From Antrihabitans auranticaus (GTDB taxonomy: Bacteria; Actinomycetota; Actinomycetes; Mycobacteriales; Mycobacteriaceae), in the NCBI RefSeq assembly GCF_016481275.1, contig NZ_JAEMNW010000002.1, positions 62,001 to 126,000 of the forward strand: a stretch of DNA of 64,000 bases, written 5' to 3'. Under the pieces are notes generated by a model. It was not told the DNA's origin. It did no database searches and was given only the letters and a program-made list of their open reading frames with translations. Below are positions 20,248 to 38,686 of this stretch, in pieces. The translations under genes and the position numbers were made by a program. Positions within the stretch are counted from its first letter, which is position 1, and every line of letters begins with the position of its first letter.

Positions 20248-20257
20248 AGGCACCACG

Positions 20258-22251: not shown

Positions 22252-22383
22252 CGCGCAATTCGGTTGCGGTAGAAACGAAGTCAGGATAGATCGGCTTAGT
22301 CCGGCGGGAAACAGTCGCCATTGTTGCACCGTTCCGAGCTGGAATGGGGCGAAACGGCACACCGAATACTACGAGGAAGTACA

Positions 22384-22403
22384 TGTTGGAGCGCACTCCA
22401 ACA
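22384..22403. promoter_or_regulatory. Perfect 8-4-8 palindrome in the mce upstream region
   Basis: TGTTGGAG and CTCCAACA flank a CGCA centre, about 200 bases upstream of the first mce-operon gene. The 351-base gap 22252-22602 holds no convincing gene; it also contains the AT-rich palindrome TTTTCGAAAA at 22513-22522. The 20-bp element could be a TetR- or GntR-type operator, or a short terminator after the Rieske gene. It does not match the KstR consensus I know. Confidence 0.45.
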
Positions 22404-22602
22404 GGGGTCGGAAATCTTCGGGGAACGCTCCGTTGTCCGACGTGCGCACCGGCGGAAGACTCACGGTAGGAACGCCAATGCGTGCGGCTCGAATTCAACT
22501 GAGCCTTGCCATTTTTCGAAAATTCTCCAGGAGAGTGGGCATGTCCCTCAGGTCGATTTCGCCGCATTGCGAACGAATCGTTTATGCGTCGGAACGCAGA
22601 CG

Positions 22603-23094
22603 ATGAAGTCAGTAGGAGTGACCAAGCAGTCGTGGTTGCTGCGCGGGCTCGCGTTGGCTGGCGTACTGGTTGTGGTCAGGATCGTGATGGGCGCTCTGGT
22701 CGAGGCGTCGCCGGAGCATGGCACCGCGGTACGGATGGTCGGTCTTCTCATAGTCGTCGGCGTCTCGGCGACGTGGGGCTTCGTCGATGGAAAACGCGAT
22801 CGACGCAACCACCCGGATCCCGATCACGGCGGCACCGATCTCGTGATGATGTGGATGTTCGCAGCGATCGTCGCGGGACTCTCCGCCGGTCTCGTCTGCT
22901 GGATCCTCGGGAAACTGGGGTTGAACATGGGCGACAACTCGTTGTTCTTCGAACTCGTTTCCGGTGCGTCCTGGTCGCTCCTGCTAGTTCTCGTCGGTGC
23001 GCTGGCCGGAAAGGTGCTCGGCGCAAAGACAGCCCAGCGGTCACTCCCCGAAATACACCACGTGTCGCCCTCATCGACCGCAGCCGAAAGGTAG
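22603..23094 (+). CDS. B-4DMT-like four-helix membrane protein
   Basis: A 163-residue membrane protein with four hydrophobic segments: about residues 10-30 (LLRGLALAGVLVVVRIVMGA), 42-58, 80-103 and 118-138. It resembles the B-4DMT family, small actinobacterial relatives of drug/metabolite transporters commonly encoded just before mce operons. It ends 4 bases before the first YrbE gene and is presumably co-transcribed. Its role in lipid import is not known. The start is uncertain because no strong ribosome site precedes 22603. Confidence 0.8.
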   Translation: MKSVGVTKQSWLLRGLALAGVLVVVRIVMGALVEASPEHGTAVRMVGLLIVVGVSATWGFVDGKRDRRNHPDPDHGGTDLVMMWMFAAIVAGLSAGLVCWILGKLGLNMGDNSLFFELVSGASWSLLLVLVGALAGKVLGAKTAQRSLPEIHHVSPSSTAAER

Positions 23095-23098
23095 CCGA

Positions 23099-23875
23099 AT
23101 GCCCGCCATCTCTACCGCCCTCATGAAACCCCTTGGGGCGATGGGGGAGTTCTTCGCCCTCTCGGCGGACGCGTTTCGTGGAATGGCCGTGTGGCCGTTT
23201 CAATGGCGCGAGTTCCTCGATCAGTGCTGGTTCATCGTGCGAGTGTCATTGGTCCCGACATTGCTTGTGGCGCTGCCGTTTACGGCCTTAATCAGTTTCA
23301 CGTTCAACATCCTTGCGGCGGAGTTCGGCGCCTCGGACGTGGCGGGCGCGGGTGCGACCCTGGGCGCGGTCACGCAGGTTGGACCGGTGGTCACGGTGCT
23401 CGTCGTCGCCGGCGCCGGCGCAACCGCGATTTGTGCCGACCTCGGTTCACGCACGATCCGCGAGGAGATAGACGCAATGGAGGTGCTCGGCATCGATCCG
23501 ATCGTGCGACTCGTTTCGCCACGCGTGCTTGCCTCGATGCTGGTTGCGCTGCTGCTCAACGCGCTGGTCTGCGCCATCGGCATCGTCGGCAGTTTCGTCT
23601 TCTCGGTGTTCTTTCAGAACGTCACCCCCGGCGCATTCGTGGACGGCATTCCGCTGCTCACCGGGTTGCCCGAGTTGGTGATCTCGGAGGTGAAGGCAGG
23701 GGCCTTCGGATTGATCGCGGCGTTGATCGCGTGTTATCGCGGGCTGACCGTGAAGGGCGGGCCGAAGAGCGTCGGGCAGGCCGTCAACGAGACGGTCGTT
23801 TACGCCTTCATGGCGTTGTTCGTCGTGAACGTTGTTATGACCGCCATCGGCATCAAGATGACAGCAGGTAGATAA
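23099..23875 (+). CDS. yrbEA: YrbE/MlaE-family ABC permease, first of pair
   Basis: A 258-residue integral membrane permease of the Mce importer. It has five to six hydrophobic segments and the MlaE-family coupling motif REEIDAMEVLGIDPIVRLVS near residue 125, which contacts the MceG ATPase. LNALVCAIGIVGSFVFSVFF and the terminal FVVNVVMTAIGIKM are membrane helices. Together with the next gene it forms the heterodimeric channel in the inner membrane that receives substrate from the Mce tunnel. The ATG at 23099 gives the standard N-terminus; the stop overlaps the next start by one base. Confidence 0.95.
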   Translation: MPAISTALMKPLGAMGEFFALSADAFRGMAVWPFQWREFLDQCWFIVRVSLVPTLLVALPFTALISFTFNILAAEFGASDVAGAGATLGAVTQVGPVVTVLVVAGAGATAICADLGSRTIREEIDAMEVLGIDPIVRLVSPRVLASMLVALLLNALVCAIGIVGSFVFSVFFQNVTPGAFVDGIPLLTGLPELVISEVKAGAFGLIAALIACYRGLTVKGGPKSVGQAVNETVVYAFMALFVVNVVMTAIGIKMTAGR

Positions 23876-24744
23876 TGACAATTGCCATCAGGCGTGGGGC
23901 TAGCCTCGACCAGTTTCGGACGAAAAGCGTTGCACGCGCGAAGAGTTCGAAGAAATCTCTCGACGAGATCGGGCGCCAGGCGGTGTTCTACCGCAATGCC
24001 GTTCTGGAGATTCCGATCGCGTTGATGCATTACCGGCGCGAGACGATTCGGTTGGTCGCCGAGGTCGCGCTCGGATCGGGGGCGCTCGCGCTGATCGGCG
24101 GCACTGTCGTGATCTGCGGATTCCTGACGCTGTCCGCGGGCGCGGTTGTGGCGCTGCAGGGATATGCGTCGCTCGGTGACATCGGTGTCGAAGCGCTGAC
24201 CGGCTTTTTCGCGGCGTATGTGAACGTTCGCATTGCGGCTCCCGTCATCGCGGGTGTCGGACTGGCCGCGACCATCGGTGCCGGCGCGACAGCGCAATTG
24301 GGTGCTATGCGGATCTCGGAGGAGATCGACGCGCTCGAGGTCATGGGTGTGCGGTCGGTCCCGTACCTGGCGTCCACACGAATCGTTGCGGGCATGATCG
24401 CGATCATCCCGATCTACGGCGTTGCAGTCGTCGCCTCGTTCATTGCCAGCCGCACGATCACCGTCGTCGTATGGGGGCAGTCGGGCGGGGTCTACGACCA
24501 CTACTTCACCTCCTTCCTTGTGCCTACGGACCTGCTCTGGTCGTTCCTGCAAGCGATTCTGATGGGACTGGTCGTCATGCTCATCCACACGTACTTCGGC
24601 TACAACGCTTCCGGCGGACCCGCCGGTGTGGGGGAGGCCGTCGGGCGTGCAGTACGCGCGTCGCTCGCCGCCGTCGTCTTCGTGACCCTTGCCGTTTCCC
24701 TGGCCGTCTACGGCGTGTCGGGCAACTTCAACTTCGCCGGATGA
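23875..24744 (+). CDS. yrbEB: YrbE/MlaE-family ABC permease, second of pair
   Basis: A 289-residue permease, partner of the preceding YrbE. The first 60 residues are a basic cytoplasmic leader, followed by membrane helices and the coupling motif SEEIDALEVMGVRSVPYLAS near residue 145. YNASGGPAGVGEAVGRAVRA near the C-terminus is typical of this subunit. Start and stop codons overlap both neighbours (TAATG and ATGA), so expression is tightly coupled to the Mce subunits. Confidence 0.95.
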   Translation: MTIAIRRGASLDQFRTKSVARAKSSKKSLDEIGRQAVFYRNAVLEIPIALMHYRRETIRLVAEVALGSGALALIGGTVVICGFLTLSAGAVVALQGYASLGDIGVEALTGFFAAYVNVRIAAPVIAGVGLAATIGAGATAQLGAMRISEEIDALEVMGVRSVPYLASTRIVAGMIAIIPIYGVAVVASFIASRTITVVVWGQSGGVYDHYFTSFLVPTDLLWSFLQAILMGLVVMLIHTYFGYNASGGPAGVGEAVGRAVRASLAAVVFVTLAVSLAVYGVSGNFNFAG

Positions 24745-25928
24745 GCGGCCGGCGTCAGCGGCGTGCGCAGAGCCAGCCGCATTACACATTGGACGGAGTT
24801 CTCTTCATCCTGTCGTTGGTGCTGGTCGCAGCGTTCGTCGCGTTCCAGTTCCGCGGCACCTTCATCAAGAGCGTCGACGTCGACCTCCTGGCACCACGTT
24901 CCGGCCTGAATCTCGAACCGGGAACTCGAGTGAAGATGCTCGATGTTCAGGTCGGCCGCGTGGCGAAGGTCGAGGAGGTCGACGGCTACGCCAAGGTCGA
25001 GCTCGACCTTTTCCCGGAGCAGGTCGACGCGATCCCGGTCAACGTGGCGGCCTCGCTCGACTCGACAACTGTTTTCGGGGCGAAGTACGTCAATCTCACA
25101 CTGCCGAAGGATGCTTCGGAGACGAAGATCGGGAACGGCGACACCATCGATGCCCGCAACATCACACCTGAGCTGAACACTCTCTTCGAGCGCCTGACCA
25201 CGGTGCTGCGGGCAGTATCACCGGAAGACCTCAACGCAACCCTCACAGCTGTGGCGGATGCGTTCCGGGACCGGGGCGAACAGGTCGGCAACACGCTGGT
25301 CGCAGCGGACTCGTACCTCAATGCGCTGCGGCCGAGTCTGGACAATTTGCAGCGTGACCTCGTCGGTACAGCCGATGTGGCCGACATCTACGCGGACGCC
25401 GCGCCAAGCCTGCTGAGCAGCGTCGAATCGCTGACGACGACAGGTTCCACGATTCTCGAAAAGGCGGACGACTTGGACCGGTTCCTGCTTGCCGCAATCG
25501 ATTTCGGCAACTCCGGTAGCACTGTTCTGAACGACAACGAAGCGGTGGTCGCGATCTTGCTGCGCAATCTTGTGCCGACAACTGAACTGCTGGAGGAGTA
25601 TTCGCCCGAATTCCCCTGCTTCTTCCAGGGCGTGGACGAGGCACGCGCAGGCGTCGAGCAGGTCGTCGGTGGCACGGTGCCCGGCTTCAACATCAGCGGC
25701 ACGCTACTTGCCGGCGATATGCCCTACCGGTATCCGCGCGACGTTCCGAAGGTTGCCGCCAGCGGTGGTCCGGCCTGCGGCCGACTGCCGTCGGTGAATG
25801 TCGCGGACGGTCCGGCACCGTACGTGGTGACCGACACGGGAGTGAACCCGTTCGCGCCGAACGGGCGGCCCGCACAGCTCAACGTCCTCGACTTCATGTT
25901 GTACGGCGTTCCGGGAGGCCTGCGATGA
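24741..25928 (+). CDS. mceA: Mce family protein A
   Basis: A 395-residue Mce subunit. One N-terminal membrane anchor (LFILSLVLVAAFVAFQF, residues about 21-37) is followed by the MlaD/Mce domain (LLAPRSGLNLEPGTRVKMLD through LDSTTVFGAKYVNLTL), an alpha-helical needle region to about residue 270, and a C-terminal domain with paired cysteines (FPCFFQG and GPACGRLP). The six Mce subunits assemble into a hydrophobic tunnel across the periplasm that carries lipids to the permease. It follows YrbEB with an ATGA overlap. Confidence 0.95.
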   Translation: MSGRRQRRAQSQPHYTLDGVLFILSLVLVAAFVAFQFRGTFIKSVDVDLLAPRSGLNLEPGTRVKMLDVQVGRVAKVEEVDGYAKVELDLFPEQVDAIPVNVAASLDSTTVFGAKYVNLTLPKDASETKIGNGDTIDARNITPELNTLFERLTTVLRAVSPEDLNATLTAVADAFRDRGEQVGNTLVAADSYLNALRPSLDNLQRDLVGTADVADIYADAAPSLLSSVESLTTTGSTILEKADDLDRFLLAAIDFGNSGSTVLNDNEAVVAILLRNLVPTTELLEEYSPEFPCFFQGVDEARAGVEQVVGGTVPGFNISGTLLAGDMPYRYPRDVPKVAASGGPACGRLPSVNVADGPAPYVVTDTGVNPFAPNGRPAQLNVLDFMLYGVPGGLR

Positions 25929-26938
25929 AGACTGCGATCAAGTTCGGACTGTTCGGGGTCGCGATGGTGGTGGTACTCGTCTTGCTCGTACTGGTGCTCG
26001 GCCAGATCCGTCTCGACAGTAGGACCGAGTATCAGGCCGATTTCGCGGATGCCTCGGGTATCAAGGCGGGTCAGGTGGTCCGCATCGCCGGTGTCGACGT
26101 CGGCCGCGTGTCCGCGGTAGATGTGGCAGGCCGTGAGGCGCATGTGACGTTCGACGTGGTGGACAACGTCCGGATCACGCCGGACGCCACCCTTCAGGTG
26201 CGCTACCAGAACCTGCTCGGCGACCGGTATCTCGAAATCACAAACGGTGCAGACATTGCCGATCCCATGACCGAAGGCGGGACATTTCCCGTCGAACAGA
26301 CCAAGTCCGCGCTGGATATCGACGCGTTGCTGGGTGGCCTTGCGCCGCTTACCCGATCGCTGGAACCCGCGCAGGTCGACCGGCTTTCGGGCGAATTGCT
26401 GCAAGTTCTGCAGGGCCAGGGCGGAACCGTCACCGGCCTGCTGCAGCAGGTTGCAGCGCTGACGAGCCAGCTTGCAGATCGGGATGCGTTGATCGGCGCC
26501 GTCATCACCAACCTGGGCACCGTGTTGCAGACAGTCGGTGACGAGAGCGGCGCGCTGTCGAGCATCATCGATCAACTGCAGCAACTTGTGACGAGGTTGT
26601 CCGAACAGGGCGCGCCGATATCCGACGCGCTGGTCCGGATCAACAGCGGATCCGCGACCGTTGCCGACCTGCTGCTCGACGATCGGCCCGCGATCGCCGG
26701 CGACATCGCAGAATTGAACAGGACCGCAACGGTTCTCGATGACGGTCGCGCTCAGGTCGAGGCAGTGCTCACACAACTGCCCGAGGCGTACCAACGGCTC
26801 AGCCGCCTCGGGTCCTACGGCAGCTTCTTCAACTTCTATCTGTGCGCCGTGACGATCGAGGTCGACGGGCCCGGTGGAGCGCCGATCATCGCCAAACTCG
26901 TTCAGCAGCAACAAGGCAGGTGTGTGACTCCGCAATGA
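25925..26938 (+). CDS. mceB: Mce family protein B
   Basis: A 337-residue Mce subunit with an N-terminal membrane anchor (residues about 7-27, LLVLVLGQI), the MlaD domain containing ASGIKAGQVVRIAGVDVGRV and YQNLLGDRYLEI, then a long alpha-helical section rich in Gln and Leu (VLQGQGGTVTGLLQQVAALT). The C-terminal region has FFNFYLCAVTIEVDG and a final cysteine near QQGRCVTPQ. Shorter than MceA and MceD, as is usual. It overlaps both neighbours by 4 bases. Confidence 0.95.
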   Translation: MKTAIKFGLFGVAMVVVLVLLVLVLGQIRLDSRTEYQADFADASGIKAGQVVRIAGVDVGRVSAVDVAGREAHVTFDVVDNVRITPDATLQVRYQNLLGDRYLEITNGADIADPMTEGGTFPVEQTKSALDIDALLGGLAPLTRSLEPAQVDRLSGELLQVLQGQGGTVTGLLQQVAALTSQLADRDALIGAVITNLGTVLQTVGDESGALSSIIDQLQQLVTRLSEQGAPISDALVRINSGSATVADLLLDDRPAIAGDIAELNRTATVLDDGRAQVEAVLTQLPEAYQRLSRLGSYGSFFNFYLCAVTIEVDGPGGAPIIAKLVQQQQGRCVTPQ

Positions 26939-27975
26939 AAACCTTCGAGAAGGACAAGAGCACCCGAGCTGGGCTGATAGGGCTTGTCGTCATTGCCGCT
27001 ACGGTTGCGGCGGTGTCGAACTACGACAACCTCTTCTTCATCGACTCCGACCACGAGGTGAAGGCGGTCTTCGCTGACGCCGGTGGCATCAAGACCGGCG
27101 ACAAAGTCGAATTCGTCGGCGTAAACGTCGGGAACGTCAGCGAGATCGACTTGCGCGGCACCGATGTCGTGGTCACGATGTCGGTCCGCGACGATCTGGA
27201 TCTGGGGTCCGCGCCGCGTGCGGAGATGCGCACCCGTGCCGTGCTCGGGGCCAAGTCGATCGTGCTGGTGCCGAGCAGCGACGATGGTCGGTTCGATTCC
27301 GACGTGGCGATACCGATCGACCGCACTCGAACTCCGTACGACCTGCCGACCGAACTCGGAAATCTCGCGGCAAACGTCGAGGACATCAACACCGACCAGT
27401 TGTCCGATGCGTTGCGTGCGACGTCGGATGTGCTCGCAGAGACCGCACCCGAGGTGCACACTGCACTCGACGGTGTGGCGCGCCTGTCGGACACGCTCGG
27501 ATCGCGCGACGAGGCGCTGAAAGGTCTGCTGAAGGACGGCGCCGCGGTGACGGGCGTGCTGGCAGAGCGCCGCAGTCAGATCAATTCTCTCGTTGTCGAC
27601 GGCAACACCCTGTTTGCCGAGATCGACGCCCGTCGAGCAGCGCTCGACTCGCTGACCACGAACTTGTCCGCTGTGGCCTACCAGATCAGCGGACTCGTCG
27701 CCGACAACAGAGAGCAATTGGCGCCCACCCTCGAACGCGTCAACCGCGTGCTGGAACAGCTTTCGCGAAACAGGGCCAATCTGGAGTCGGCCATTCCGGG
27801 GTTGGCAAACTACGCCCGCACCTTGAACGAAGCCCTCGGCAGCGGACCGTTCTTCCAGGCCTACGTCGCCAACCTCCTTCCCGGCCAGTTCATTCAGCCG
27901 TTCATCGACGCAGCGCTGGGTGATGGCCGCGTCCCCGCCCCGCCCGCCAATCCCATCACGGACGGACCACGATGA
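26935..27975 (+). CDS. mceC: Mce family protein C
   Basis: A 346-residue Mce subunit. The N-terminus KDKSTRAGLIGLVVIAATVA carries the anchor, followed by the MlaD domain (FADAGGIKTGDKVEFVGVNV, MRTRAVLGAKSIVLVP) and a helical region with LSDALRATSDVLAETAPEVH and repeated NRVLEQLSRNRANLE heptads. The C-terminus ends in a conserved QAYVANLLPGQFIQPFIDAA block and a short Pro-rich tail. Position third of six fits the standard mce order. Confidence 0.95.
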   Translation: MKTFEKDKSTRAGLIGLVVIAATVAAVSNYDNLFFIDSDHEVKAVFADAGGIKTGDKVEFVGVNVGNVSEIDLRGTDVVVTMSVRDDLDLGSAPRAEMRTRAVLGAKSIVLVPSSDDGRFDSDVAIPIDRTRTPYDLPTELGNLAANVEDINTDQLSDALRATSDVLAETAPEVHTALDGVARLSDTLGSRDEALKGLLKDGAAVTGVLAERRSQINSLVVDGNTLFAEIDARRAALDSLTTNLSAVAYQISGLVADNREQLAPTLERVNRVLEQLSRNRANLESAIPGLANYARTLNEALGSGPFFQAYVANLLPGQFIQPFIDAALGDGRVPAPPANPITDGPR

Positions 27976-29267
27976 GCATGAACCGCAAGACGATTTCGAT
28001 TGCCGCTGGTGCCGCCATCCTCGCGTTCCTGGCGTTGCTCACCTACGTCATCGTCCCCAAGCTGACGACGAAGACAGTCACCGCGTATTTTCCTGCAGCA
28101 GTGGGACTTTTCCCAGGCGACGCGGTCCGGATCCTCGGCGTCGACGTCGGCACCGTGCAGAAGATCGAGCCGGAAGGCACCCGTGTCGCGGTCGAGATGC
28201 GGCTCGACAAGAAGTGGGAGCTGCCCGCCGACGTGCAGGCCGTGATCCTCGCACCGACCCTGGTGACGACCCGGTTCGTCCAGTTGACGCCGGCCTACAC
28301 CGGCGGTCCGACCCTCGACGACGGGGGCACCATCCCCGAGGACCACACCGCGATGCCAGTGGAGTGGGACGTCATAAAGGAACAGCTCACGCGGCTGACG
28401 AAAACCCTTGGTCCCCAGGGTGAAAGCGGCAACCTCGAACAGGGGACGCTGGGTACCTTCGTTTCCGACGCCGCCGACAACGCACGCGGCAACGGCGAGA
28501 CCCTGCACGAAACTCTCGACAAGCTGGCTCGGACGACGACCGCTCTCTCGGACGGACGCTCCGACTTGTTTGCTGTGGTCAGGAACCTGTCGCTGCTCGT
28601 CGATGCGCTGGCTCAAAGCCACGACCAGATCGTCCAATTCAACGGCCACCTGGCGTCGGTGACACAGTTGCTCGGCGACAGCGAGACCGCGCTCGGCGAC
28701 TCGGTCGCCGATCTCGATCGAGCGGTCATCGACATCGCCGAGTTCGTTCGCGACAACAAGGACGGAATCGGAACTGCCGTAAACGAACTGGGCGCCGCGA
28801 CACAGGCGTTGGTCGACAAACGCCGCGATCTCGAACAGGTCTTTCACGTCGCTCCGACAGCGCTGGTCAACCTCGGCAACATCTACCAGCCCGCACAGAA
28901 CGCACTCACTGCGGCGCCGGTGCTGTCCAACACCGCAAACCCGGTTCAGTTCATCTGTGGCGCGATCGCCGGCGCTGGTGAACAAGGCGCAGAGGAAGCG
29001 ACCAACCTATGCATCCAGTACCTCGGCCCGCTGTTGAAGACGCTGGCGTTCAACTACATTCCGCTCGGCACCGTGATCGGCAACTCCGTCGGTGCTCTTC
29101 CCGACCAAATCGTCTACAGCGAACCAGGATTGGCGGGTCCGATCCAGACCGGCGGCGATTCACAGCTGCGGATTCCGCCCGCGCCACCGGTGCTGCCTGG
29201 CCTGCCAGGTTTGCTCCTGCCCGGTCTGCCGGCACTCCCGGCACTTCCCGGAGCAGGTCCGCGATGA
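27972..29267 (+). CDS. mceD: Mce family protein D
   Basis: A 431-residue Mce subunit: membrane anchor at about residues 8-28, MlaD domain with FPGDAVRILGVDVGTVQKIE and APTLVTTRFVQLTP, a helical section ending near residue 300, then NIYQPAQNALTAAPVLSNTA and a paired-cysteine segment (FICGAIAG, NLCIQYLG). The last 45 residues are a Pro/Leu/Gly-rich tail with repeated LPGLP-type units, a common feature of MceD that may reach the cell wall. It overlaps MceC and MceE by 4 bases each. Confidence 0.95.
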   Translation: MSMNRKTISIAAGAAILAFLALLTYVIVPKLTTKTVTAYFPAAVGLFPGDAVRILGVDVGTVQKIEPEGTRVAVEMRLDKKWELPADVQAVILAPTLVTTRFVQLTPAYTGGPTLDDGGTIPEDHTAMPVEWDVIKEQLTRLTKTLGPQGESGNLEQGTLGTFVSDAADNARGNGETLHETLDKLARTTTALSDGRSDLFAVVRNLSLLVDALAQSHDQIVQFNGHLASVTQLLGDSETALGDSVADLDRAVIDIAEFVRDNKDGIGTAVNELGAATQALVDKRRDLEQVFHVAPTALVNLGNIYQPAQNALTAAPVLSNTANPVQFICGAIAGAGEQGAEEATNLCIQYLGPLLKTLAFNYIPLGTVIGNSVGALPDQIVYSEPGLAGPIQTGGDSQLRIPPAPPVLPGLPGLLLPGLPALPALPGAGPR

Positions 29268-30391
29268 CCGCACTGGCACGGAAATCGACTGTTGTGGCTT
29301 GTGGATTCGCGCTCGCCGCGACCTTGACCGGCTGCGGCTGGACCGGGCTCAACCAATTCGCGCTTCCCGGTGCGGCGGGGTCGGGCGAGGGGGCGTGGAC
29401 CGTCGAGATCGAAATGCCCGACGTCACAACCTTGACCGAGAACGCACGGGTCCGCGTAGACGACGTCAACGTCGGAACCGTCCGCAGCATCGAGGTCGAG
29501 AACGACCACGCGCTGGTCACAGTCTCGCTGAACGAGGGAGTGACCCTCCCGGCAAACGCGACGGCCAAGATCGGGTCGACCAGTTTGCTCGGTTCCGCAC
29601 ACCTCGAACTGCTCTCGCCGGACAGTCCTCAGGGTGAACTGCACGACGGCGACCGGATTCCGCTGGATCGAGGCGGTGCATATCCGACCACGGAGCAGAC
29701 TCTTTCGACATTGTCGTTCCTGCTCAACGGCGGGGATATCGGCAAACTCGAGGAGATCAACCGGGAAGTCGGCCAGGCGTTGCTCGGCCGCGAAGACATC
29801 GTTCGCAACCTGCTCAGCAACGTCGAGGACTTCACTAGTCGTCTCAACGATCAGCGCGACGACATCATTCGTGCGCTCGCAGGTCTGGACCGCTTCTCGA
29901 AAGTCGTTGCCGACGATCGTGATGTGGTCGAGAACGGTCTTCGCACTCTCGGTCCCGCACTGACCGAATTGAACGAACAGCGCGACAACCTCAGCAACGC
30001 GCTGCTTGCGATCGGAAACTTCGCAGACGCTGCGGACCGGGTGATCACAGGCAGCCGAGAGGAACTCGACACGAACCTGCGTGCGCTCGAACCGACGCTG
30101 CGGGGATTGGCAGATGCGGGACCTGCGTTGCCGTCGTCGCTGTCGTTTCTGCTGACCATTCCGTTCCCGATGAACACCTACAAGAACGCGATGCAGGGTG
30201 ACTACGCGAACCTGTTCCTGAACCTTGACCTCACGACGGCGCGGGTCGACCGCGCTCTGCTCACAGGAACTCCCGCGGCGGGCCAGTTGGCATCCCTCGG
30301 CGGGCTCATCGGGCAGCTGCCGCCGATCCCGCCGATCGTGGGTAATCCGCTGATCACTCCGTTGAACGTGCCAGGGCAAGGTGACAACTGA
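29264..30391 (+). CDS. mceE: Mce family lipoprotein E (LprK-like)
   Basis: A 375-residue Mce subunit with a type II signal peptide: a basic start, a hydrophobic core and the lipobox L21-T-G-C24, so Cys24 should be lipid-modified, anchoring it to the outer leaflet of the plasma membrane. The Mce domain follows (VRVDDVNVGTVRSIEVEN, IGSTSLLGSAHLELLSP), then helical repeats (LSNVEDFTSRLNDQRDDIIR) and a C-terminal block LTIPFPMNTYKNAMQGDYAN typical of MceE. Confidence 0.96.
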   Translation: MTALARKSTVVACGFALAATLTGCGWTGLNQFALPGAAGSGEGAWTVEIEMPDVTTLTENARVRVDDVNVGTVRSIEVENDHALVTVSLNEGVTLPANATAKIGSTSLLGSAHLELLSPDSPQGELHDGDRIPLDRGGAYPTTEQTLSTLSFLLNGGDIGKLEEINREVGQALLGREDIVRNLLSNVEDFTSRLNDQRDDIIRALAGLDRFSKVVADDRDVVENGLRTLGPALTELNEQRDNLSNALLAIGNFADAADRVITGSREELDTNLRALEPTLRGLADAGPALPSSLSFLLTIPFPMNTYKNAMQGDYANLFLNLDLTTARVDRALLTGTPAAGQLASLGGLIGQLPPIPPIVGNPLITPLNVPGQGDN

Positions 30392-31593
30392 TGCTTCTCA
30401 CGAAATTCGTTCGCTACCAATTGATTGCGTTCGCGATCATCGCCGTGGTTTCCATCGCGTGGATAGCTGTGTCCTACATGCGCGTGCCGTCCATGCTCGG
30501 GCTCGGCCGCAACACCGTGGAACTGGTCCTGCCTTCGGGCGGCGGGCTCTACCCGAAGTCGAATGTGACCTACCGCGGCGTTCACGCCGGTGTGGTGAAC
30601 GGTCTGCGGATCGAGGGGGATCAGGTGGTCGTCACGATGTATCTCGACAGCGACCTCGACATCCCCAAGGACGGCCTCCTTGCCGAAGTGCACAGCAGGT
30701 CTGCGATCGGTGAGCAGTACATCGAACTGCTGCCGCAAACAGACTTGGGTCCCTACCTCGCCGACGGCGACCGCATCGACAGCACACTGCTTCCCACCTC
30801 TACCGCCGAGTTGGTCGACACGCTCGACGTCGCGTTGCAGGACGTACCGCGTGAGGACCTGAAGTCGTTGATCGACGAGAGCGGCGCAGCGTTCACCAAC
30901 TCCGGAAGCGACCTGCAGCAAATCCTCGACGGATTGGACAAGTTCCTGCAAGAGGGGCAGCAGAACCTCGCTCCGACGCTGAACTTGATCGACAACGGGG
31001 GTCCGTTGCTGGACACGCAGGTCGAATCGGCCGACAACATCCGTGCTTGGACCGGCTATCTGGACTCGATCACATCCTCGGTCGCGGCCAACGACGCTTC
31101 CGTCCGCGGACTGTTCGTCAACGGTGCCTCGGCGGGTGCGGAGGCGACCGACCTGTTCGACCGGATCGCGCCGAACCTGCCCACGGCCTTGGGAAACCTG
31201 GACTCCGTCGCCGACGTGCTGCGGATCTACAACATGAGCCTCGAACAGATCCTCGTGGTCTATCCGCCGCTCGCAGCGGGTGCGCAGAGCATCGTGCGGG
31301 GTTCGAAACCAGGGATGGTCAATCTAGACTTCAACCTCGACATCAATGCTCCGCCACCGTGTTTGACCGGCTTCGTGCCGCCCGACCAGCGGCGGTCACC
31401 GGCTGATGCGACGGTCATCGACAGTCAGACATCGAACTACTGCGCAGTTGCCGAAGACGACCCGTACGTCGTCCGTGGTGCCCGCAATCTCCCGTGTCTG
31501 GACGTACCCGGCGTGCGTGCTCCCGACGTCGACGCGTGCCGTGCAGGCGGCGCCGCGCCGCTCGGCACGAATCCGTGGATCGGAGGCCCATGA
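30391..31593 (+). CDS. mceF: Mce family protein F
   Basis: A 400-residue Mce subunit, last of the six. It has an anchor at residues about 10-30, the MlaD domain (GLYPKSNVTYRGVHAGVVNG, RSAIGEQYIELLPQ), a helical needle region and a C-terminal domain with cysteines in PPPCLTGFVPPDQRRSP, SNYCAVAED, NLPCLDVPG and DACRAGG. The cysteine pattern suggests disulfides in the outermost part of the tunnel. The start overlaps the MceE stop (TGATG). Confidence 0.95.
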   Translation: MLLTKFVRYQLIAFAIIAVVSIAWIAVSYMRVPSMLGLGRNTVELVLPSGGGLYPKSNVTYRGVHAGVVNGLRIEGDQVVVTMYLDSDLDIPKDGLLAEVHSRSAIGEQYIELLPQTDLGPYLADGDRIDSTLLPTSTAELVDTLDVALQDVPREDLKSLIDESGAAFTNSGSDLQQILDGLDKFLQEGQQNLAPTLNLIDNGGPLLDTQVESADNIRAWTGYLDSITSSVAANDASVRGLFVNGASAGAEATDLFDRIAPNLPTALGNLDSVADVLRIYNMSLEQILVVYPPLAAGAQSIVRGSKPGMVNLDFNLDINAPPPCLTGFVPPDQRRSPADATVIDSQTSNYCAVAEDDPYVVRGARNLPCLDVPGVRAPDVDACRAGGAAPLGTNPWIGGP

Positions 31594-31642
31594 CACCAGG
31601 GTTTCGATCCGACCAACCGCTCACACGACCCGAAGGCCCCAC

Positions 31643-32158
31643 ATGAAACTCCTCCCAGACGCGCTGCGGCGCGTGCTCACCCGGTCGAACGTGCTCGCGT
31701 TCGTGCTCATCGCAGTCGCGGTGACCTTCACCGCGCTGGCCGGCGCACAACTACGCGATCATCACGACGCCGAAGAGGCGCTGGCAAACGACGCAGCGAT
31801 CCTCAGTGCCGCCAACTCGGGGGTCACCGCGATGATCTCGGTCCGCGACAATTCGGCTGCCGACGATGTCGCAAAGGTTCTCGACCAGTCCACCGGTGCC
31901 TTCAAGGCAGATTTCGAGCAGCGCTCGGAGTCGTTCATCAGTGTCGTTCAGGAAGCGAAGGTCGTCACGCAGGGCGAAGTAGTCGCTTCGGGAATCGAGT
32001 CTCGCGACGGGGATTCCGCGACAGTGCTGGTGTCGGCGACCTCGACGGTCAGCAACGCGGCGGGTGCGGACAACGAAACGCGGAGCTGGCGGCTGCGCGT
32101 CACGATGACCGATGACGACGGCGCCTACAAGATGTCGAACGTGGAGTTTGTGGCATGA
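31643..32158 (+). CDS. Mce-associated membrane protein, first
   Basis: A 171-residue protein with one N-terminal membrane helix (NVLAFVLIAVAVTFTALAGA, about residues 16-35) and an extracytoplasmic NTF2-like domain containing DDVAKVLDQSTGAFKADFEQ and SATVLVSATSTVSN. Mam proteins stabilise Mce complexes in mycobacteria. It begins 49 bases after mceF and its stop overlaps the next Mam start. Assignment rests on fold type and position. Confidence 0.88.
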   Translation: MKLLPDALRRVLTRSNVLAFVLIAVAVTFTALAGAQLRDHHDAEEALANDAAILSAANSGVTAMISVRDNSAADDVAKVLDQSTGAFKADFEQRSESFISVVQEAKVVTQGEVVASGIESRDGDSATVLVSATSTVSNAAGADNETRSWRLRVTMTDDDGAYKMSNVEFVA

Positions 32159-32730
32159 AAATTCAAGAACTGGAAGCAGAAACGCTGGACATCGATGAAA
32201 GCGTCTCGGCCGCAGCGGATTCTCCTGCACCTGCGCGCGAGGGCAACCGGGGAAAGGTGGTCCGCGCAGTCTGCGCAGTACTGGCGGTAGCCGCCGTCGG
32301 TGCCTGGGCATTGCTGTTCTTCGCCGTCCGGCCCGACGACAGCGCGCTGGCACCCGACCGCCAGCAGGCTGCCGTCGACGCTGCCGCAGACGCGGCGGTC
32401 GCGATTCTGACCTACAAGTCCGACACCGTCGACGCAGACCTCGCAGCGGCGGACAGTCTGGTCACCGGCACCTTCGGCGACTACTACCGGACCTTCACCC
32501 GTGACGTCGTCGCACCGGCCGCCAAGGAGAAGAACATCAGCACGACAGCTTCGGTTGTCGGCAAAGCGATTTCGGAGTTCAGCGCAGACAGGGCAGTCGT
32601 CGTTGTCTTCCTGAACCAGGCCACGACCACGGCGGACGTCGCGCAACCCGCCGCGACCACAACCACCATCCGCATCGAAGTCGAACGCCACGGCGATGCC
32701 TGGCTCGTATCCAAATTCGACCCGGCATGA
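32155..32730 (+). CDS. Mce-associated membrane protein, second
   Basis: A 191-residue paralogue of the previous gene. An acidic cytoplasmic N-terminus of about 35 residues precedes one membrane helix (VCAVLAVAAVGAWALLFFAV, about 39-58); the outer domain has AILTYKSDTVDADLAAADSL, VTGTFGDYYRTFTRDVV, ISTTASVVGKAISEFSADRA and a final DAWLVSKFDPA. These are standard Mam features. It overlaps the first Mam gene by 4 bases, and a 28-codon ORF follows 19 bases later. Confidence 0.9.
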   Translation: MKIQELEAETLDIDESVSAAADSPAPAREGNRGKVVRAVCAVLAVAAVGAWALLFFAVRPDDSALAPDRQQAAVDAAADAAVAILTYKSDTVDADLAAADSLVTGTFGDYYRTFTRDVVAPAAKEKNISTTASVVGKAISEFSADRAVVVVFLNQATTTADVAQPAATTTTIRIEVERHGDAWLVSKFDPA

Positions 32731-32749
32731 CCACACAAGGACGCCTGAC

Positions 32750-32836
32750 ATGATCATCGACCTCGTCGAACCCATCGAGTTCATTGTGAAAGCGATTGCC
32801 TACCTACTGTTCCGCGGGCAGTTGCCACCGGCGTAG
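32750..32836 (+). CDS. 28-residue hydrophobic micropeptide in the mce operon
   Basis: A short frame beginning MIIDLVEPIEFIVKAIAYL and ending RGQLPPA, then TAG. The first 21 residues form a plausible single amphipathic or membrane helix with an acidic start and a basic end (LLFRG). AAGGA lies 9 bases upstream of the ATG, and its stop TAG is part of the TAGGAGG ribosome site of the next gene, suggesting translational coupling. It fills a gap that otherwise has no gene in a tightly packed operon. No homologue is known to me; a membrane micropeptide that modulates the Mce complex is a guess. Confidence 0.55.
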   Translation: MIIDLVEPIEFIVKAIAYLLFRGQLPPA

Positions 32837-32845
32837 GAGGTTCGG

Positions 32846-33103
32846 ATGAACGTGGACGATCCACGGCACGGAACGATAAACGGCTACATCAATCTCGGCT
32901 GCCGATGCTCGATGTGCCGCGACGCCAACCGAATCCGGCATGCGCACTACATCAATCGGCTGCGCGCCGAAGGCAGAACCATAGGGCGGCACGGTAGTAG
33001 CGCCGCATACGAAAGCGGTTGCCGCTGTGTGCATTGCACGCTGGCGAACACGCTCAAGGGGCGAGCGCGACGGCGACGCGCCCTGCAACGGACAAGCCGA
33101 TGA
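32846..33103 (+). CDS. 85-residue duplicated GCRC-x2-C small protein (phage-type)
   Basis: A small, very basic protein made of two copies of one motif: HGTINGYINLGCRCSMCRDA at about residues 8-27 and HGSSAAYESGCRCVHCTLAN at about 49-68, each with HG, an aromatic Tyr and GCRC-x2-C. The motif pattern is familiar from small proteins of actinophages and suggests a pair of zinc-binding knuckles. The C-terminus is Arg-rich, which would suit nucleic-acid binding. It has an ideal ribosome site (TAGGAGG, 5-base gap). Its position between Mam genes and mceG is unexpected. Function unknown. Confidence 0.8.
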   Translation: MNVDDPRHGTINGYINLGCRCSMCRDANRIRHAHYINRLRAEGRTIGRHGSSAAYESGCRCVHCTLANTLKGRARRRRALQRTSR

Positions 33104-33124
33104 CCTATTGCGAAAGGAAAATAC

Positions 33125-34147
33125 ATGGGCGTCGAAGTCAGAACTGAAGGCATTACCAAGTCCTTCGGCCGCCAGAACATTTGGCAGAACGTAACTCTGA
33201 CCCTCCCGCCCGGGGAGATCAGCCTGATGGTCGGCCCGTCGGGCACCGGTAAGTCGGTGTTCCTGAAGTCGCTGATCGGCCTGCTGAAGCCGGAAGAAGG
33301 CTCGATCTACATCGACGGTACCGACGTCACGACGTGTTCGAGCAAGGAACTCTACGAGATCCGCAAACTGTTCGGGGTCCTGTTCCAGGACGGTGCACTG
33401 TTCGGGTCGATGAGCCTGTTCGACAACGTGGCATTTCCGTTGCGGGAGCACACGAAGAAGTCCGAGTCCGACATCAAGCGGATCGTGATGGAGAAGATGG
33501 AACTGGTCGGACTGCAGGGTGCCGAGCACAAGCTGCCGGGCGAGATTTCGGGCGGTATGCGCAAGCGTGCCGGCCTCGCGCGAGCGCTGGTGCTGGACCC
33601 GCAGATCATTCTGGTCGACGAGCCCGACTCCGGGTTGGACCCGGTGCGCACGACCTATATTTCACAGTTGTTTCTCGACATCAATGCGCAGATAGACGCG
33701 ACATTCCTGATTGTTTCCCACAACATCAACCTGGCCCGTACGGTGCCGGATAATATCGGGATGTTGTTTCGTCGCAACTTGGTGATGTTCGGACCGCGTG
33801 AAGTGTTGCTGACCAGTGACGAGCCGGTCGTGCGGCAGTTTCTGAACGGTCGGATGATCGGTCCGATCGGTATGTCGGAGGAGAAGGACGAAGCGCAGAT
33901 GGCGCAGGAGCAGGCACTCGTGGATGCCGGGCACCACGCTGGTGGTGTCGAGGAGGTCGGCGGCATCGTGCCGCAGATGGTCGCGACTCCCGGCATGCCG
34001 GAACGCACTGCGATTACGCGCCGCCAGAACCGCGTTCGCGAAATCCTGCACACCCTGCCTCCGGCAGCGCAGGCGGCAATTCGAGAATCCCTGGACGGCG
34101 AGACGGCTGTGCTTTCCGGTACCACGAGCTCTTACCGAGGCGAATAG
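33125..34147 (+). CDS. mceG: Mce transporter ATPase MceG/Mkl (MlaF family)
   Basis: A 340-residue ABC ATPase that powers Mce lipid import. Walker A is GPSGTGKS (37-44), the signature is SGGMRKRAGLARAL, and Walker B with the D-loop is IILVDEPDSGLDPVRT. After the nucleotide-binding domain comes the actinobacterial MceG extension with GRMIGPIGMSEEKDEAQMAQ, ATPGMPERTAITRRQNRVRE and ILHTLPPAAQAAI. All catalytic motifs are intact. In mycobacteria mceG is a single unlinked gene shared by several mce operons; here it lies inside the operon. Start 33125 follows GAAAGGAAAATAC. Confidence 0.96.
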   Translation: MGVEVRTEGITKSFGRQNIWQNVTLTLPPGEISLMVGPSGTGKSVFLKSLIGLLKPEEGSIYIDGTDVTTCSSKELYEIRKLFGVLFQDGALFGSMSLFDNVAFPLREHTKKSESDIKRIVMEKMELVGLQGAEHKLPGEISGGMRKRAGLARALVLDPQIILVDEPDSGLDPVRTTYISQLFLDINAQIDATFLIVSHNINLARTVPDNIGMLFRRNLVMFGPREVLLTSDEPVVRQFLNGRMIGPIGMSEEKDEAQMAQEQALVDAGHHAGGVEEVGGIVPQMVATPGMPERTAITRRQNRVREILHTLPPAAQAAIRESLDGETAVLSGTTSSYRGE

Positions 34148-34180
34148 CCGAAAGTATTTGCCGCACAGGAGGTAACAACC

Positions 34181-35374
34181 ATGTCGGAGCATTCGCGTCC
34201 TTTCGTTATCAGGGTCGCGTCGCGCGCGAGTGCTCGAGACACACGAACGCACGAACCGCGTCCGGTTCCTGAGCCGCCGCCCAGTCAAGATCCAGAGCCA
34301 CGGCCGAATCCAGAGCCACGGCCGAATCCAGAGCCACGGTCGGTGCGAGATTCGGTCGACGGTGCGATGCACGACCTCGGCGCGCTCGCCGATGCGGTCG
34401 GCGATCAAGTTCGCCCGGTTGCGTCGTTCGCGGTGGAAACGGCCGACAGCATCGTCTCGGCGGTGGAGTCCGCCAGATCTGCGGGCGCGAGCATCTGGAA
34501 GGCGCTCAACGTGTTGAGCGATCGAGCGCGCTCGGACGATCATGCGGAGCCGTCTGCGGAAGATGTCGCGCCCGCAGTCGATCTCGCTGCGGGTGCGGCC
34601 TCCGATGCGATCAGCTCCGCCGAATCGGCTCGCAGTGCCGGGAACGGAATCTGGAAGATGCTCAACGACGTTCGGCGCGACCCGCTGAGTGCGGCAGGCG
34701 GGGTTCTCGACCCCCTTCGCCGTGTCTCCGAACCTGCTGTCGTGAAGAACGTCGTGACGACGGTCGGTGGGCTGTCGACCGGTTTGACGGCGGGAATACT
34801 CGGTTCGGACGAGGATCTTCGTGCCGTCGGCAACAAGCTGATCGCGCTTTCGCAGAAGCCTCACTACGAGGCCGGGGGCCGCCATCCCGCGTTTTCGCAC
34901 ATCCTGCATCAGCTCAATCCGGACGAGGCCCGGATGCTGCGGTTTTTGGCAAAGGCCGGCGTGCAGCCGGCGATCGATATTCGTACCAAGACCCTGTTCC
35001 AGATCGGGTCCGAGCGGCTGGCCGGCGGAATCAACATGATTGCCGAGATGGCCAGTTGCCGCTGGCCCGAACACAATCAGCAATACCTATCGAACCTCAA
35101 TCGACTGGGGCTCGTCGTGTTTTCCAAAGAGCCCGTCGATGATTTCCGTCGTTATGCGTTGCTCGAGGTGCAACCACGTGCGATGGAAGCGATCGAAACG
35201 GTCAAGTCAGCGATCACTATCTACCGCAGCATTTATCTTTCGGGATTCGGAAAGCAATTCTGCGATGTCTGCTTCGACCTGACGGGCTACACGGCGGGTG
35301 GCTGGGACAAAGACGAACGAGGCGACAAAATGATCGGCTCCGGACCGCCCGCACCGCGCAAGCACAGTCACTGA
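34181..35374 (+). CDS. Abi-alpha/DUF4393-like protein with internal repeats
   Basis: A 397-residue protein with three parts. Residues about 1-60 are Pro/Glu/Arg-rich with PEPRPN units. Residues about 85-175 contain two copies of an amphipathic helix (SAVESARSAGASIWKALN and SSAESARSAGNGIWKMLN). The C-terminal half (HPAFSHILHQLNPDEARMLR, IAEMASCRWPEHNQQYLSNL, NRLGLVVFSKEP, ITIYRSIYLSGFGKQFCDVC) resembles the Abi-alpha (DUF4393) family, which includes abortive-infection proteins. It has an AGGAGG site and follows mceG by 33 bases. Actinobacterial members near mce genes may have a membrane-linked role rather than phage defence; function unknown. Confidence 0.7.
   Translation: MSEHSRPFVIRVASRASARDTRTHEPRPVPEPPPSQDPEPRPNPEPRPNPEPRSVRDSVDGAMHDLGALADAVGDQVRPVASFAVETADSIVSAVESARSAGASIWKALNVLSDRARSDDHAEPSAEDVAPAVDLAAGAASDAISSAESARSAGNGIWKMLNDVRRDPLSAAGGVLDPLRRVSEPAVVKNVVTTVGGLSTGLTAGILGSDEDLRAVGNKLIALSQKPHYEAGGRHPAFSHILHQLNPDEARMLRFLAKAGVQPAIDIRTKTLFQIGSERLAGGINMIAEMASCRWPEHNQQYLSNLNRLGLVVFSKEPVDDFRRYALLEVQPRAMEAIETVKSAITIYRSIYLSGFGKQFCDVCFDLTGYTAGGWDKDERGDKMIGSGPPAPRKHSH
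34292..34340 (+). repeat. 18-bp tandem repeat inside the Abi-alpha-like gene
   Basis: CCAGAGCCACGGCCGAAT is repeated head to tail from 34292, with two exact copies and a third that diverges after 12 bases. It encodes the PEPRPN units of the N-terminal linker. Being 18 bp it keeps frame, so copy number could vary between strains without disrupting the gene. Confidence 0.85.
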
Positions 35375-35413
35375 CTCCCGGGTACTCAACGTCGACAGAT
35401 ATCGAGAGATGAG

Positions 35414-36838
35414 ATGACCAATCTAGCAGCGGGGGTTTTCCTCAATTGGGAGGAGCTGACCGGGCAGTCGAAGTTCGTCGTCGACCTTGTCAGCGTGCCG
35501 ATCTTCAGCGCCATCGCCGGTCTCATAACGAACTGGACCGGCGTGATCATGCTGTTCGCACCCGTTCATTTCACAGGCTTCTATGTGCCCGGACTCAAGA
35601 AGGTGTTTCCCTTTCTGCCGCGCAAGTTGCAGATCTTGCCGACATTCGCGCCGAACGGGATCCTCGGTTTCCAGGGCTTCATTCCATGTCGTGCCGAAAA
35701 GATGTCGAGTCTGATCGTCGACAAATCCATTGCCCGCATCGGCGGCATCGGCGACTTCTACAACGAGTTGGAGCCGGAGACCCTCGCCGACAGCATTGCC
35801 AGGGCTGCCCGACCAGACATACGCAGGTTGACCACCGAAGTGATCGAGAAACAGCATCCACAACTGTGGCGGTCGTTACCGCAACCGTTGAAGGAACAGG
35901 TCATGCGCACGGTGGACGCCGAATTGCCTGCAATATCGCGGCGGGCCTTCAAGAAGATCGGCGAGAACATCGATCAACTGCTCGACGTGAAGTTGATGAC
36001 GGTGAACTATCTGCGAAAGCGGCCCGACGTACTCGTCGACATCATCAAGGGAATGGCCGTACCGGAACTCCGCTTCATGGTTCGGATCGGTCTCATGGGT
36101 TTCCCGTTCGGCATTCTGTTGGCGCTGTGGCTGTCGTTCCTGCACTACAGCAGTGACCACGTGAAGCACGCGCACGAACTCGATCCCAGTGCGGCATATA
36201 TTGCTCTGCCGGGATTCCTCACCTCGATCCTGCATTTCCTTCCCGCGTGGTTGTGGGTGCTCGTCGGTGCGGCTCTCATCGGCATCATCGTGAACATCAT
36301 CGCGATCAAGGTGGTGTTCGAACCTGGCGAGCCACAACCTCGTTACAAATATCTCTGGAAGCAGGGTCTGTTTGCGCAACGTCAGCACGAGGCCGCTGCG
36401 GAACTCGCGCAGATGTTGTCGCTGCAAGTGCTGACAGTGTCGAATTTCGCCGACGAGTTGCTCAACGGCGCCGGTGCGGACAAGACCCGTGCATACGTCG
36501 AGGAGGCCGTCGCGGAGGAGGCCGAGCGCATCCTCGGCCCGGTGCTGCTCGTGGCCCGCAATTCGTTCGGTGTGGTCGATGTCGTCGGCCTCGAGAAAGG
36601 CGCGAGCGCCGCCGTCGTCGACTTTGCGCCCAATGTGTTCTACGAGCCCGAATTCAACAAGGAGAAAGCAAAGAAGATCGATGCCTTCGCGACCGAGAAA
36701 TTTCGCGAACTGCCGCCGGACGAATTCGGCGAAATGCTTTACTCCGCCATCGAACAGGATGCCTGGCTGCTTTACGCGCACGGTGGACTGCTCGGCATTC
36801 TGGTCGGCGCCATGCACATCCTGATCTTCGGAGCCTGA
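35414..36838 (+). CDS. DUF445-like membrane protein
   Basis: A 474-residue membrane protein. The N-terminal membrane segment, IFSAIAGLITNWTGVIMLFA, and the following PNGILGFQGFIPCRAEKMSS match the DUF445 pattern (TNW-x2-MLF-x-P, later FQG-x-IP). Two central helices flank residues 225-300, and the second, LIGIIVNIIAIKVVFEPGEP, looks like a repeat of the first, followed by QGLFAQRQHEAAAELAQML. A final helix ends the protein. It appears to be a duplicated DUF445 unit. It is 39 bases after the Abi-alpha-like gene and likely part of the same transcript. Biochemical role unknown. Confidence 0.78.
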   Translation: MTNLAAGVFLNWEELTGQSKFVVDLVSVPIFSAIAGLITNWTGVIMLFAPVHFTGFYVPGLKKVFPFLPRKLQILPTFAPNGILGFQGFIPCRAEKMSSLIVDKSIARIGGIGDFYNELEPETLADSIARAARPDIRRLTTEVIEKQHPQLWRSLPQPLKEQVMRTVDAELPAISRRAFKKIGENIDQLLDVKLMTVNYLRKRPDVLVDIIKGMAVPELRFMVRIGLMGFPFGILLALWLSFLHYSSDHVKHAHELDPSAAYIALPGFLTSILHFLPAWLWVLVGAALIGIIVNIIAIKVVFEPGEPQPRYKYLWKQGLFAQRQHEAAAELAQMLSLQVLTVSNFADELLNGAGADKTRAYVEEAVAEEAERILGPVLLVARNSFGVVDVVGLEKGASAAVVDFAPNVFYEPEFNKEKAKKIDAFATEKFRELPPDEFGEMLYSAIEQDAWLLYAHGGLLGILVGAMHILIFGA

Positions 36839-36871
36839 CATACACGATCCCCATCGAGAGGACCGCAACAC

Positions 36872-37660
36872 ATGAACGGCTATTCGAGGATCGTCGTCGG
36901 ATCCGATGGATCCGCCCTCGCCCGGGATGCAGTGGCGGTCGCCGGTGTGCTCGCCATGCGGATGTCGCTACCCGTCACTGCCGTGACGGCGTGGAAGTCG
37001 GAGCTGGCCGTGCCGGGTGCGCGAGAACTGCCGTGGGCGGAGCTCACGACACAAGGTGCCGACGTGGACCTGAGCGGGGCTGGAGTTCGGGGTGTGGTCC
37101 GGGTCGAGGCCAACGGCGATCCAGCCGAGTCGTTGATCGAAGTCGCGACCGGAGACGGAGATGCACTCCTCGTCGTCGGTGCGCAGGGGCTGAGCAGTGC
37201 AACGAGCCGGCTTACTGGCAGCACGTCGAATCAGTTGTCGCACAACAGCCCGGTCGACGTCCTGTTCGTTCGCAAACGCATTGCGGCATTCGAATCGATT
37301 GCGCTGGCGACCGACGGATCGGAGACCTCGCTGCGTGCTGTGAGCCGCGGCTACGCGTTTGCCGCCGCGCTCGGCGCCGGCGTCACGCTGGTGACTGTCG
37401 CTGCCTCGGTCAGTGCGGGGGACGAACTGCTCGAGAAGGTCGCAGCGCAGCTCGCGGTCGAGCATCCGGAGTCGTCGGTGCAGCGACGCGCCTTCACTGG
37501 CAGCGCGGCGGACGTGCTCGCGAGCGACACGGGGGAGTACGACGTGCTGGTGCTCGGCAACCGCGGAATGAGTGGGTTCGCACGGGTTCTCGGCTCGACG
37601 GCAAACACGATCACGCACCGGGCGGCGACAAATCTGCTGCTTGTGAATACCACGCATTGA
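36872..37660 (+). CDS. Tandem-domain universal stress protein
   Basis: A 262-residue cytoplasmic protein with two USP domains, about residues 1-134 and 137-262. Each has the ATP-binding pattern G-x2-G-x9-G-[ST]: GAQGLSSATSRLTGSTSN in the first and GNRGMSGFARVLGSTANT in the second. N-terminal VVGSDGSALARDAV and ALATDGSETSLRAV are the paired nucleotide loops. Likely an ATP-binding USP of the mycobacterial type, linked to stress or dormancy. It follows the DUF445-like gene by 33 bases and may be the last gene of the mce transcript. Confidence 0.92.
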   Translation: MNGYSRIVVGSDGSALARDAVAVAGVLAMRMSLPVTAVTAWKSELAVPGARELPWAELTTQGADVDLSGAGVRGVVRVEANGDPAESLIEVATGDGDALLVVGAQGLSSATSRLTGSTSNQLSHNSPVDVLFVRKRIAAFESIALATDGSETSLRAVSRGYAFAAALGAGVTLVTVAASVSAGDELLEKVAAQLAVEHPESSVQRRAFTGSAADVLASDTGEYDVLVLGNRGMSGFARVLGSTANTITHRAATNLLLVNTTH

Positions 37661-37770
37661 CCCAGCCTGCTGCTTCCGAAACGAGTAACTAACTAGCCGG
37701 TCGGCACCTCTTCGCGGAGGCCGGTTCGGACGAGTATCGATGCACACGACCAATCCAGGAAGGAGACCGC

Positions 37771-38676: not shown

Positions 38677-38686
38677 CGGCGGGGTG

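Follow-up and report, generated by a model that had tools for sequence, protein, structure and literature searches.

Can one operon encode, besides the core of an MCE importer, accessory proteins that are usually encoded elsewhere? The question is raised by an operon at positions 22603-37660 of a 64,000-nucleotide stretch of the Antrihabitans auranticaus genome (RefSeq assembly GCF_016481275.1, contig NZ_JAEMNW010000002.1, positions 62,001 to 126,000); this whole stretch is called the window here, and all coordinates refer to it. The host is a soil actinobacterium with a genome of 6.5 Mb; among named organisms, Antrihabitans stalactiti YC2-7 is its closest relative. The operon comprises 17 genes, all on the forward (+) strand in the map of open reading frames (ORFs), in the order LucB homolog, yrbEA, yrbEB, mceA-F, a Mam pair, a 28-aa ORF, a GCRC protein, mceG, Abi_alpha, a DUF445-like gene and a tandem universal stress protein (USP). 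Intergenic gaps within it range from -4 to 49 bp, with 351 bp before the operon and 110 bp to the next gene after it. A preliminary description of the window had proposed a self-contained, possibly dedicated lipid importer with new auxiliary subunits, and every gene in its list was found in its place on one strand. Judging from the observed gene content, homology, conserved linkage and copy-number pattern, the operon is probably a complete MCE importer of a rare subtype that brings along accessories usually encoded elsewhere. The window contains no tRNA gene, Rfam gave no match within 22000-38800, and promoter- and terminator-like sites were in no excess over shuffled sequence.

The predicted proteins supply the full gene set of an actinobacterial MCE importer, plus a LucB and an MceG of the operon's own. 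As in operons of the Mycobacterium tuberculosis type, two MlaE-type permeases precede six MCE-domain proteins, and a Mam/Mas pair lies downstream. The permease YrbEA (23099-23875) matches MlaE (PF02405, E = 1.5e-59) and YrbE1A of PDB entry 8FED (E = 1.2e-94); YrbEB (23875-24744) is assigned by position and by 84-91% identity to relatives, not by Pfam. MceA (24741-25928) matches MlaD, Mce4_CUP1 and TIGR00996. MceB (25925-26938), MceC (26935-27975), MceD (27972-29267), MceE (29264-30391) and MceF (30391-31593) each carry an MlaD domain above the cut-off, and MceF is 71-80% identical to its counterparts in five relatives. The Mas-type proteins Mam1 (31643-32158) and Mam2 (32155-32730) are recognized by position and conservation: their naming as a Mam pair holds by their place after mceF and their likeness to the pairs behind other mce operons, not by any curated model above its cut-off (Mam1 weakly matches VirB8, E = 0.003; Mam2 is without a Pfam match). 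The same parts, namely two YrbE proteins, six Mce proteins, an MceG with a C-terminal extension and a LucB, make up Mce1 of Mycobacterium smegmatis (PDB 8FED/8FEE/8FEF). However, mycobacterial MceG and LucB are encoded off-operon according to the available part of PMC9882608, whereas the operon in the window holds both, together with a micropeptide and the GCRC protein. It would thereby be a variant of the actinobacterial importer equipped with a LucB and an MceG of its own; we infer cognate pairing, co-transcription and substrate from the sequence. In the host genome as a whole, 68 MCE domains were found, which read by place as 11 six-gene mce operons and two singles. The two lone matches, at C19:570512 and C21:269194 outside the six-gene operons, are possibly orphan Mce proteins.

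The LucB homolog is the first gene of the operon (22603-23094, 163 aa, 4 bp before yrbEA). It scores 145 bits against the NCBIfam model B-4DMT (NF037996; cut-off 100) and matches chain K of 8FED over the four-helix region (residues 10-153 to 3-145, E = 8.7e-26), which was the only PDB sequence found at E up to 1. LucB (MSMEG_3032/Rv2536) is an extra four-helix subunit in the Mce1 structure, where it was assigned from cryo-EM density and binds MceC; the available text of that preprint states that no earlier link to MCE transporters existed (PMC9882608). Rv2536 is named both LucB and B-4DMT in the accessible part of PMC9947336. Because the protein previously listed as B-4DMT is a LucB homolog, the operon is more self-contained than had been claimed. 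No mce-operon-encoded LucB was reported in the accessible LucB/B-4DMT literature, a search that had most subscription papers outside its reach.

Family-level searches covered 301 genomes of the family and genus-level searches four Antrihabitans genomes; presence or absence of neighbours was judged in the flanking DNA examined around each locus, which is short in places. LucB is present in 231 of the 301 genomes and is single-copy in 226 of these 231. Two copies occur in genomes G044 and G277, and three each in the host (G000), A. stalactiti (G015) and Rhodococcus oxybenzonivorans (G237). These counts come from scoring the best candidates in each genome, up to 13, and a full rescoring of the five multi-copy genomes returned the same numbers. 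All eight extra copies lie inside mce operons: the host, A. stalactiti and R. oxybenzonivorans have two each, the single extra copy of G277 is 67 bp from Mam2, and that of G044 sits on the opposite strand between mceF and the Mam pair. The seven core copies of the five multi-copy genomes and the two other genomes of the genus have no mce gene in their flanks, about 9 kb per side (1.2 kb on one side in G277). In the LucB tree, the copies from six operons of the subtype described below form one group (support 96/95), the copies of R. oxybenzonivorans C2 and G277 form another (95/97), and the G044 copy is too divergent to be placed. Since the Antrihabitans copies are related, independent events number fewer than eight.

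The subtype itself is rare and was found in Antrihabitans, Nocardia and Rhodococcus. MceF homologs of at least 70% identity occur in three of the 301 family genomes (two copies each in the host and A. stalactiti, one in R. oxybenzonivorans) and in Nocardia rhizosphaerihabitans; a plasmid-borne MceF of Rhodococcus opacus PD630 is 59% identical, and its operon joins the same YrbEA clade (100/99). Among the seven subtype operons with flanks examined, the Mam pair and the micropeptide are present in all seven and LucB in six, the GCRC protein and a linked MceG in three each, and the Abi/DUF445-like pair with the USP in two; one further operon has a USP-like match (30%) about 3 kb from its Mam genes. 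Absence of the accessory genes from orthologous operons would count against their belonging to the importer, and the outcome is divided: the Mam pair, micropeptide and LucB were kept, and the others are mostly absent. A single conserved set of all accessories was consequently rejected, as GCRC, MceG, Abi, DUF445-like and USP genes are absent from most of the seven. Of the proposed new auxiliary subunits, the LucB homolog and the mce-tied micropeptide remain candidates, whereas the GCRC protein resembles zinc-motif proteins and the Abi_alpha/DUF445-like/USP genes form a separate module. The mce operons on plasmids pRB98 of R. oxybenzonivorans and pRoPD630_1 of R. opacus PD630 likewise have the micropeptide and a linked MceG, and one pRB98 operon has a linked LucB; they differ from the window in that their MceG lies upstream, divergently or after four Mam-type genes, and no GCRC or Abi match was seen in the stretches examined.

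The micropeptide (32750-32836, 28 aa) is a gene and not a chance ORF. A model built from six seed copies retrieved 12 copies, spread over eight of the 301 family genomes, with E-values of at most 3e-11; all further matches listed are at E = 0.03 or worse. Seven of these 12 were not seeds, and all seven adjoin mce operons of another clade. With the Nocardia and R. opacus copies included, 14 are known. None is farther than 4.6 kb from a core mce gene, and 13 have a Mam gene or MceG no more than 680 bp away; the remaining one, in G091, lies 3.4 kb upstream of yrbEA. In 12 of the 14 copies compared pairwise, the mean nonsynonymous divergence (pN) over the mean synonymous divergence (pS) is 0.28, and pN is below pS in 66 of 66 pairs, which indicates purifying selection. 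In a scan of about 2 Mb of partly overlapping loci, members scored at least 85 bits and the best other frame 12 bits. The starts are mostly preceded by purine-rich sequence, and the stop comes one or two codons past the conserved end. The order-wide search (348 genomes) gave strong matches in the host genome only, four others being short and partial (E = 0.007-0.04). The peptide was not found in the eight-row neighbouring YrbEA clade, in G017, G146 or G052, or at other mce operons of the host. In the YrbEA tree, the seven rows of clade B all have the peptide by construction, as they were found via the micropeptide, whereas the seven of clade A came from window and MceF searches. The peptide is unannotated in the R. 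opacus and pRB98 gene tables (the PLSDB tables being incomplete), and no report joining an mce operon and a micropeptide was found in a literature search that left out most subscription papers.

The best 18-residue segments of the peptide have a mean hydrophobicity of 0.43-0.60 and a moment of 0.34-0.52, which suggests a short amphipathic or membrane helix. The ORF could instead be a cis-acting leader or translational coupling element whose peptide has no function in trans; it is very short and in the window ends 9 bp before the next gene. Nevertheless, the amino-acid sequence is under purifying selection while the position of the gene varies (after MceG, after Mam2, or divergent from mceG-yrbEA), and the lack of an Rfam match in the region adds to the reasons for regarding a cis role as quite unlikely.

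MceG (33125-34147; ABC_tran, PF00005) aligns over residues 1-335 with the M. smegmatis MceG of 8FED (E = 2.9e-168) and is full-length, including the long C-terminal extension. It is one of three in the genome: the two paralogs are 94% and 89% identical to it, and the next ATPase is 35% identical. Each of the three adjoins an mce operon. The preliminary description had contrasted this linkage with the unlinked, shared MceG of mycobacteria, a contrast that finds no support, the host being an Antrihabitans and not a Mycobacterium. In a 2007 survey by Casali and Riley of non-mycobacterial Actinomycetales with mce genes, mkl/mceG was found just upstream of one mce operon in every species (PMC1810536, available in part). 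Linked MceG is therefore already known outside mycobacteria and is not new here. What differs from those operons (mce6 and others) is the location: mkl lies immediately upstream of yrbEA in them, an arrangement that recurs twice in the host, where both paralogs directly precede yrbEA in other operons, whereas the mceG of the window is downstream of the Mam genes. In the YrbEA tree, the host C22 operon stands beside the MceG-first operons of A. stalactiti and G061, with their branching unresolved. MceG follows the Mam genes also in operons L172 (R. oxybenzonivorans pRB98) and L173 (another Rhodococcus genome), so that its position downstream, though uncommon, has parallels. Simple orthology of the operon MceGs of the two Antrihabitans species was rejected because they do not group in the tree, a result of low support. 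In A. stalactiti, another MceG (83%) lies in a same-strand cluster (contig C22, L128 3789-8965) with subunits resembling polyhydroxyalkanoate (PHA) synthase, a hydrolase and a further GCRC protein, about 10 kb from an mce operon (L181).

That this importer has a dedicated ATPase is conjecture, as the host has three near-identical MceG genes and 11 mce operons. A more ordinary arrangement would be an importer that draws its MceG from a shared pool, with LucB, the micropeptide and the remaining accessories co-regulated with the operon while serving all Mce systems of the cell. Mycobacteria, with a shared MceG and a single LucB (PMC9947336 and PMC9882608, available in part), offer the precedent, and the 89-94% identity of the three copies and the weakly supported failure of the two species' operon MceGs to group agree with it. 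Yet such sharing would not account for the confinement of all eight extra LucB copies found to mce operons, nor for the divergence of the subtype LucBs as a group of their own, and a linked MceG is present in the flanks examined of six of the 14 micropeptide-bearing operons; a shared pool is accordingly considered unlikely. MceG is a weaker reason for interest in this operon than had been thought, and the operon-borne LucB and the micropeptide are stronger ones.

The GCRC protein (32846-33103) has two C-x-C-x2-C repeats and is probably zinc-binding. It resembles the zinc motifs of phage HNH proteins (PHROG HNH/HTH matches, E about 1e-7), and no match was found in the phage collection at E = 1e-3. 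Eight copies occur in six of the 301 family genomes. Three are at subtype mce operons, and one is part of a PHA-synthase-like cluster, 3 kb from an MceG. Among the other four, two are less than 1 kb from a cytosine-methylase-like gene (L129 and L132, with a Vsr-like gene also adjoining the copy in L132), a third (L130) has a methylase-like fragment about 4 kb off and the last has neither; these neighbours are named by reading their sequences and not by family search. At L129 and L132 the GCRC type is possibly a small zinc protein of restriction loci. For the window protein, a nucleic-acid-binding regulator appears more likely than a subunit of the importer.

The operon ends with an Abi_alpha protein (34181-35374), a DUF445-like membrane protein (35414-36838) and a tandem USP (36872-37660; PF00582 in two stretches). 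The first is a member of PF14337 (123.8 bits against a cut-off of 29; E = 1.1e-35), and its C-terminal domain resembles Abi_alpha and PADLOC PDC-S47 (E = 3.7e-16); it differs from these in being paired with a DUF445-like membrane protein and a USP, and a defence function is putative. The DUF445 name is borne out only as a weak likeness, as the gene is present and scores 25.7 bits against the PF04286 cut-off of 33.8; relatives occur in 75 of the 301 family genomes. Structures predicted from two-row alignments had a mean pLDDT (predicted local distance difference test score) of 39 for the DUF445-like protein and 37 for Abi_alpha. These modules have multiplied in Antrihabitans (L051, L056, L066, L228 and L230), sometimes with several within 10 kb.

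The tail could be a functional extension of the importer, such as a sensor of membrane integrity or stress coupled to import. The gene order is identical in two Antrihabitans species, a third Abi_alpha/DUF445-like pair (G042, L230) is separated by about 1.4 kb from an mce operon of a different type, to which it is convergent on the opposite strand, and a starred branch of the DUF445-like tree divides the window copy from that of the A. stalactiti mce operon, which could mean repeated recruitment to one place. The two are therefore not simple orthologs, an interpretation that the tree rejects, and were recruited or converted separately. The distribution of the genes speaks against such an extension. 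Of 22 Abi_alpha copies in the four genus genomes, only three are near an mce operon (the window copy, its A. stalactiti ortholog and the G042 copy), although 20 have a DUF445-like gene within 1 kb, three of these partners being only 23-24% alike and two host copies falling outside this check. For the other five host copies the nearest MCE domain is 20 kb away or more, and the remaining 14 have no mce gene in the flanks examined. Moreover, the closest relative of the window pair is an A. stalactiti pair about 19 kb from its mce operon (87/78% identity, versus 79/58% for the syntenic pair), and the tail is absent from five of seven subtype operons. The Abi_alpha/DUF445-like/USP genes are a separate module, usually away from mce, and a role in import is improbable.

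The genes around the operon fit import of an oxidisable lipophilic compound. Pfam identifies upstream an AMP-ligase, a P450, a ferredoxin reductase and a VanA-type Rieske protein, and downstream Abhydrolase_3, a KshA-type Rieske protein and an alkyl sulfatase. Homologs of the reductase and the VanA-type protein are present at the other three Antrihabitans subtype loci (85/81% identity in the ortholog, 55-56/46-47% in the paralogs), as are ligase homologs (only 31-32% in the paralogs); of the three loci, only the two paralogous ones have a P450 homolog. The operons of Nocardia and R. oxybenzonivorans are preceded by an esterase and a PucR-type regulator (33-38%). The upstream region 13134-22251 of the window holds two PucR-type regulators and an IclR regulator beside the oxidation cluster of ligase, P450, reductase and Rieske genes, and upstream of the A. 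stalactiti operon both PucR genes, the ligase, the reductase and the Rieske gene are conserved.

A complete importer of this kind would be read from one transcript and would work as a physical assembly. Through the MceA-F needle a lipophilic substrate would cross the cell envelope and reach the YrbEA/YrbEB permease, with an MceG dimer hydrolysing ATP. The operon's LucB paralog may contact its cognate MceC at the transmembrane helix and tune or scaffold the complex, and the 28-aa peptide may be a small membrane-associated partner of it. The compound taken up would probably enter the pathway encoded next to the operon (acyl-CoA synthetase, P450, ferredoxin reductase, VanA-type Rieske oxygenase and esterase). 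The Abi_alpha/DUF445-like/USP genes would be a stress module appended by recombination.

Several points weigh against this interpretation. Diverged extra LucB copies may have been missed in genomes where only the best candidates, up to 13, were scored, and two of the eight extra copies are under the NCBIfam cut-off (99.2 and 81.1 versus 100). At the C end, operon-linked LucBs are generally shorter than core copies (126-174 versus 146-239 residues, counted from an N-terminal motif); total lengths, which bear on a C-terminal extension beyond the fourth helix, are 163 aa in the window and 152-247 aa in the seven core copies, three of which exceed 200 aa, with starts chosen by script. The R. opacus PD630 subtype operon has no linked LucB within the 29 kb examined. 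With 89-94% identity among the MceG copies and no grouping of the syntenic pair in the tree (low support), the ATPase may be interchangeable. Operon membership is no proof of membership in a complex, since the purified Mce1 complex, as described in the available text of PMC9882608, yielded no Mam proteins, and both assembly and transcription are here read from the genes.

A further-reaching proposal, which is offered tentatively and to which we give a real but less than even chance, is that the 28-aa peptide is a new subunit of one branch of actinobacterial MCE systems, forming with the operon's LucB and MceG an autonomous MCE machine that moves among genomes and plasmids as one cassette. The micropeptide is in any case a candidate MCE subunit overlooked by the gene tables examined. 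The role of LucB in MCE systems gains independent evolutionary support, as every extra copy found among the 231 LucB-positive genomes sits in an mce operon. The operon also offers a natural set, with a cognate versus a core LucB and a cognate MceG versus two paralogs, with which to examine whether LucB and MceG are selective for their transporter.

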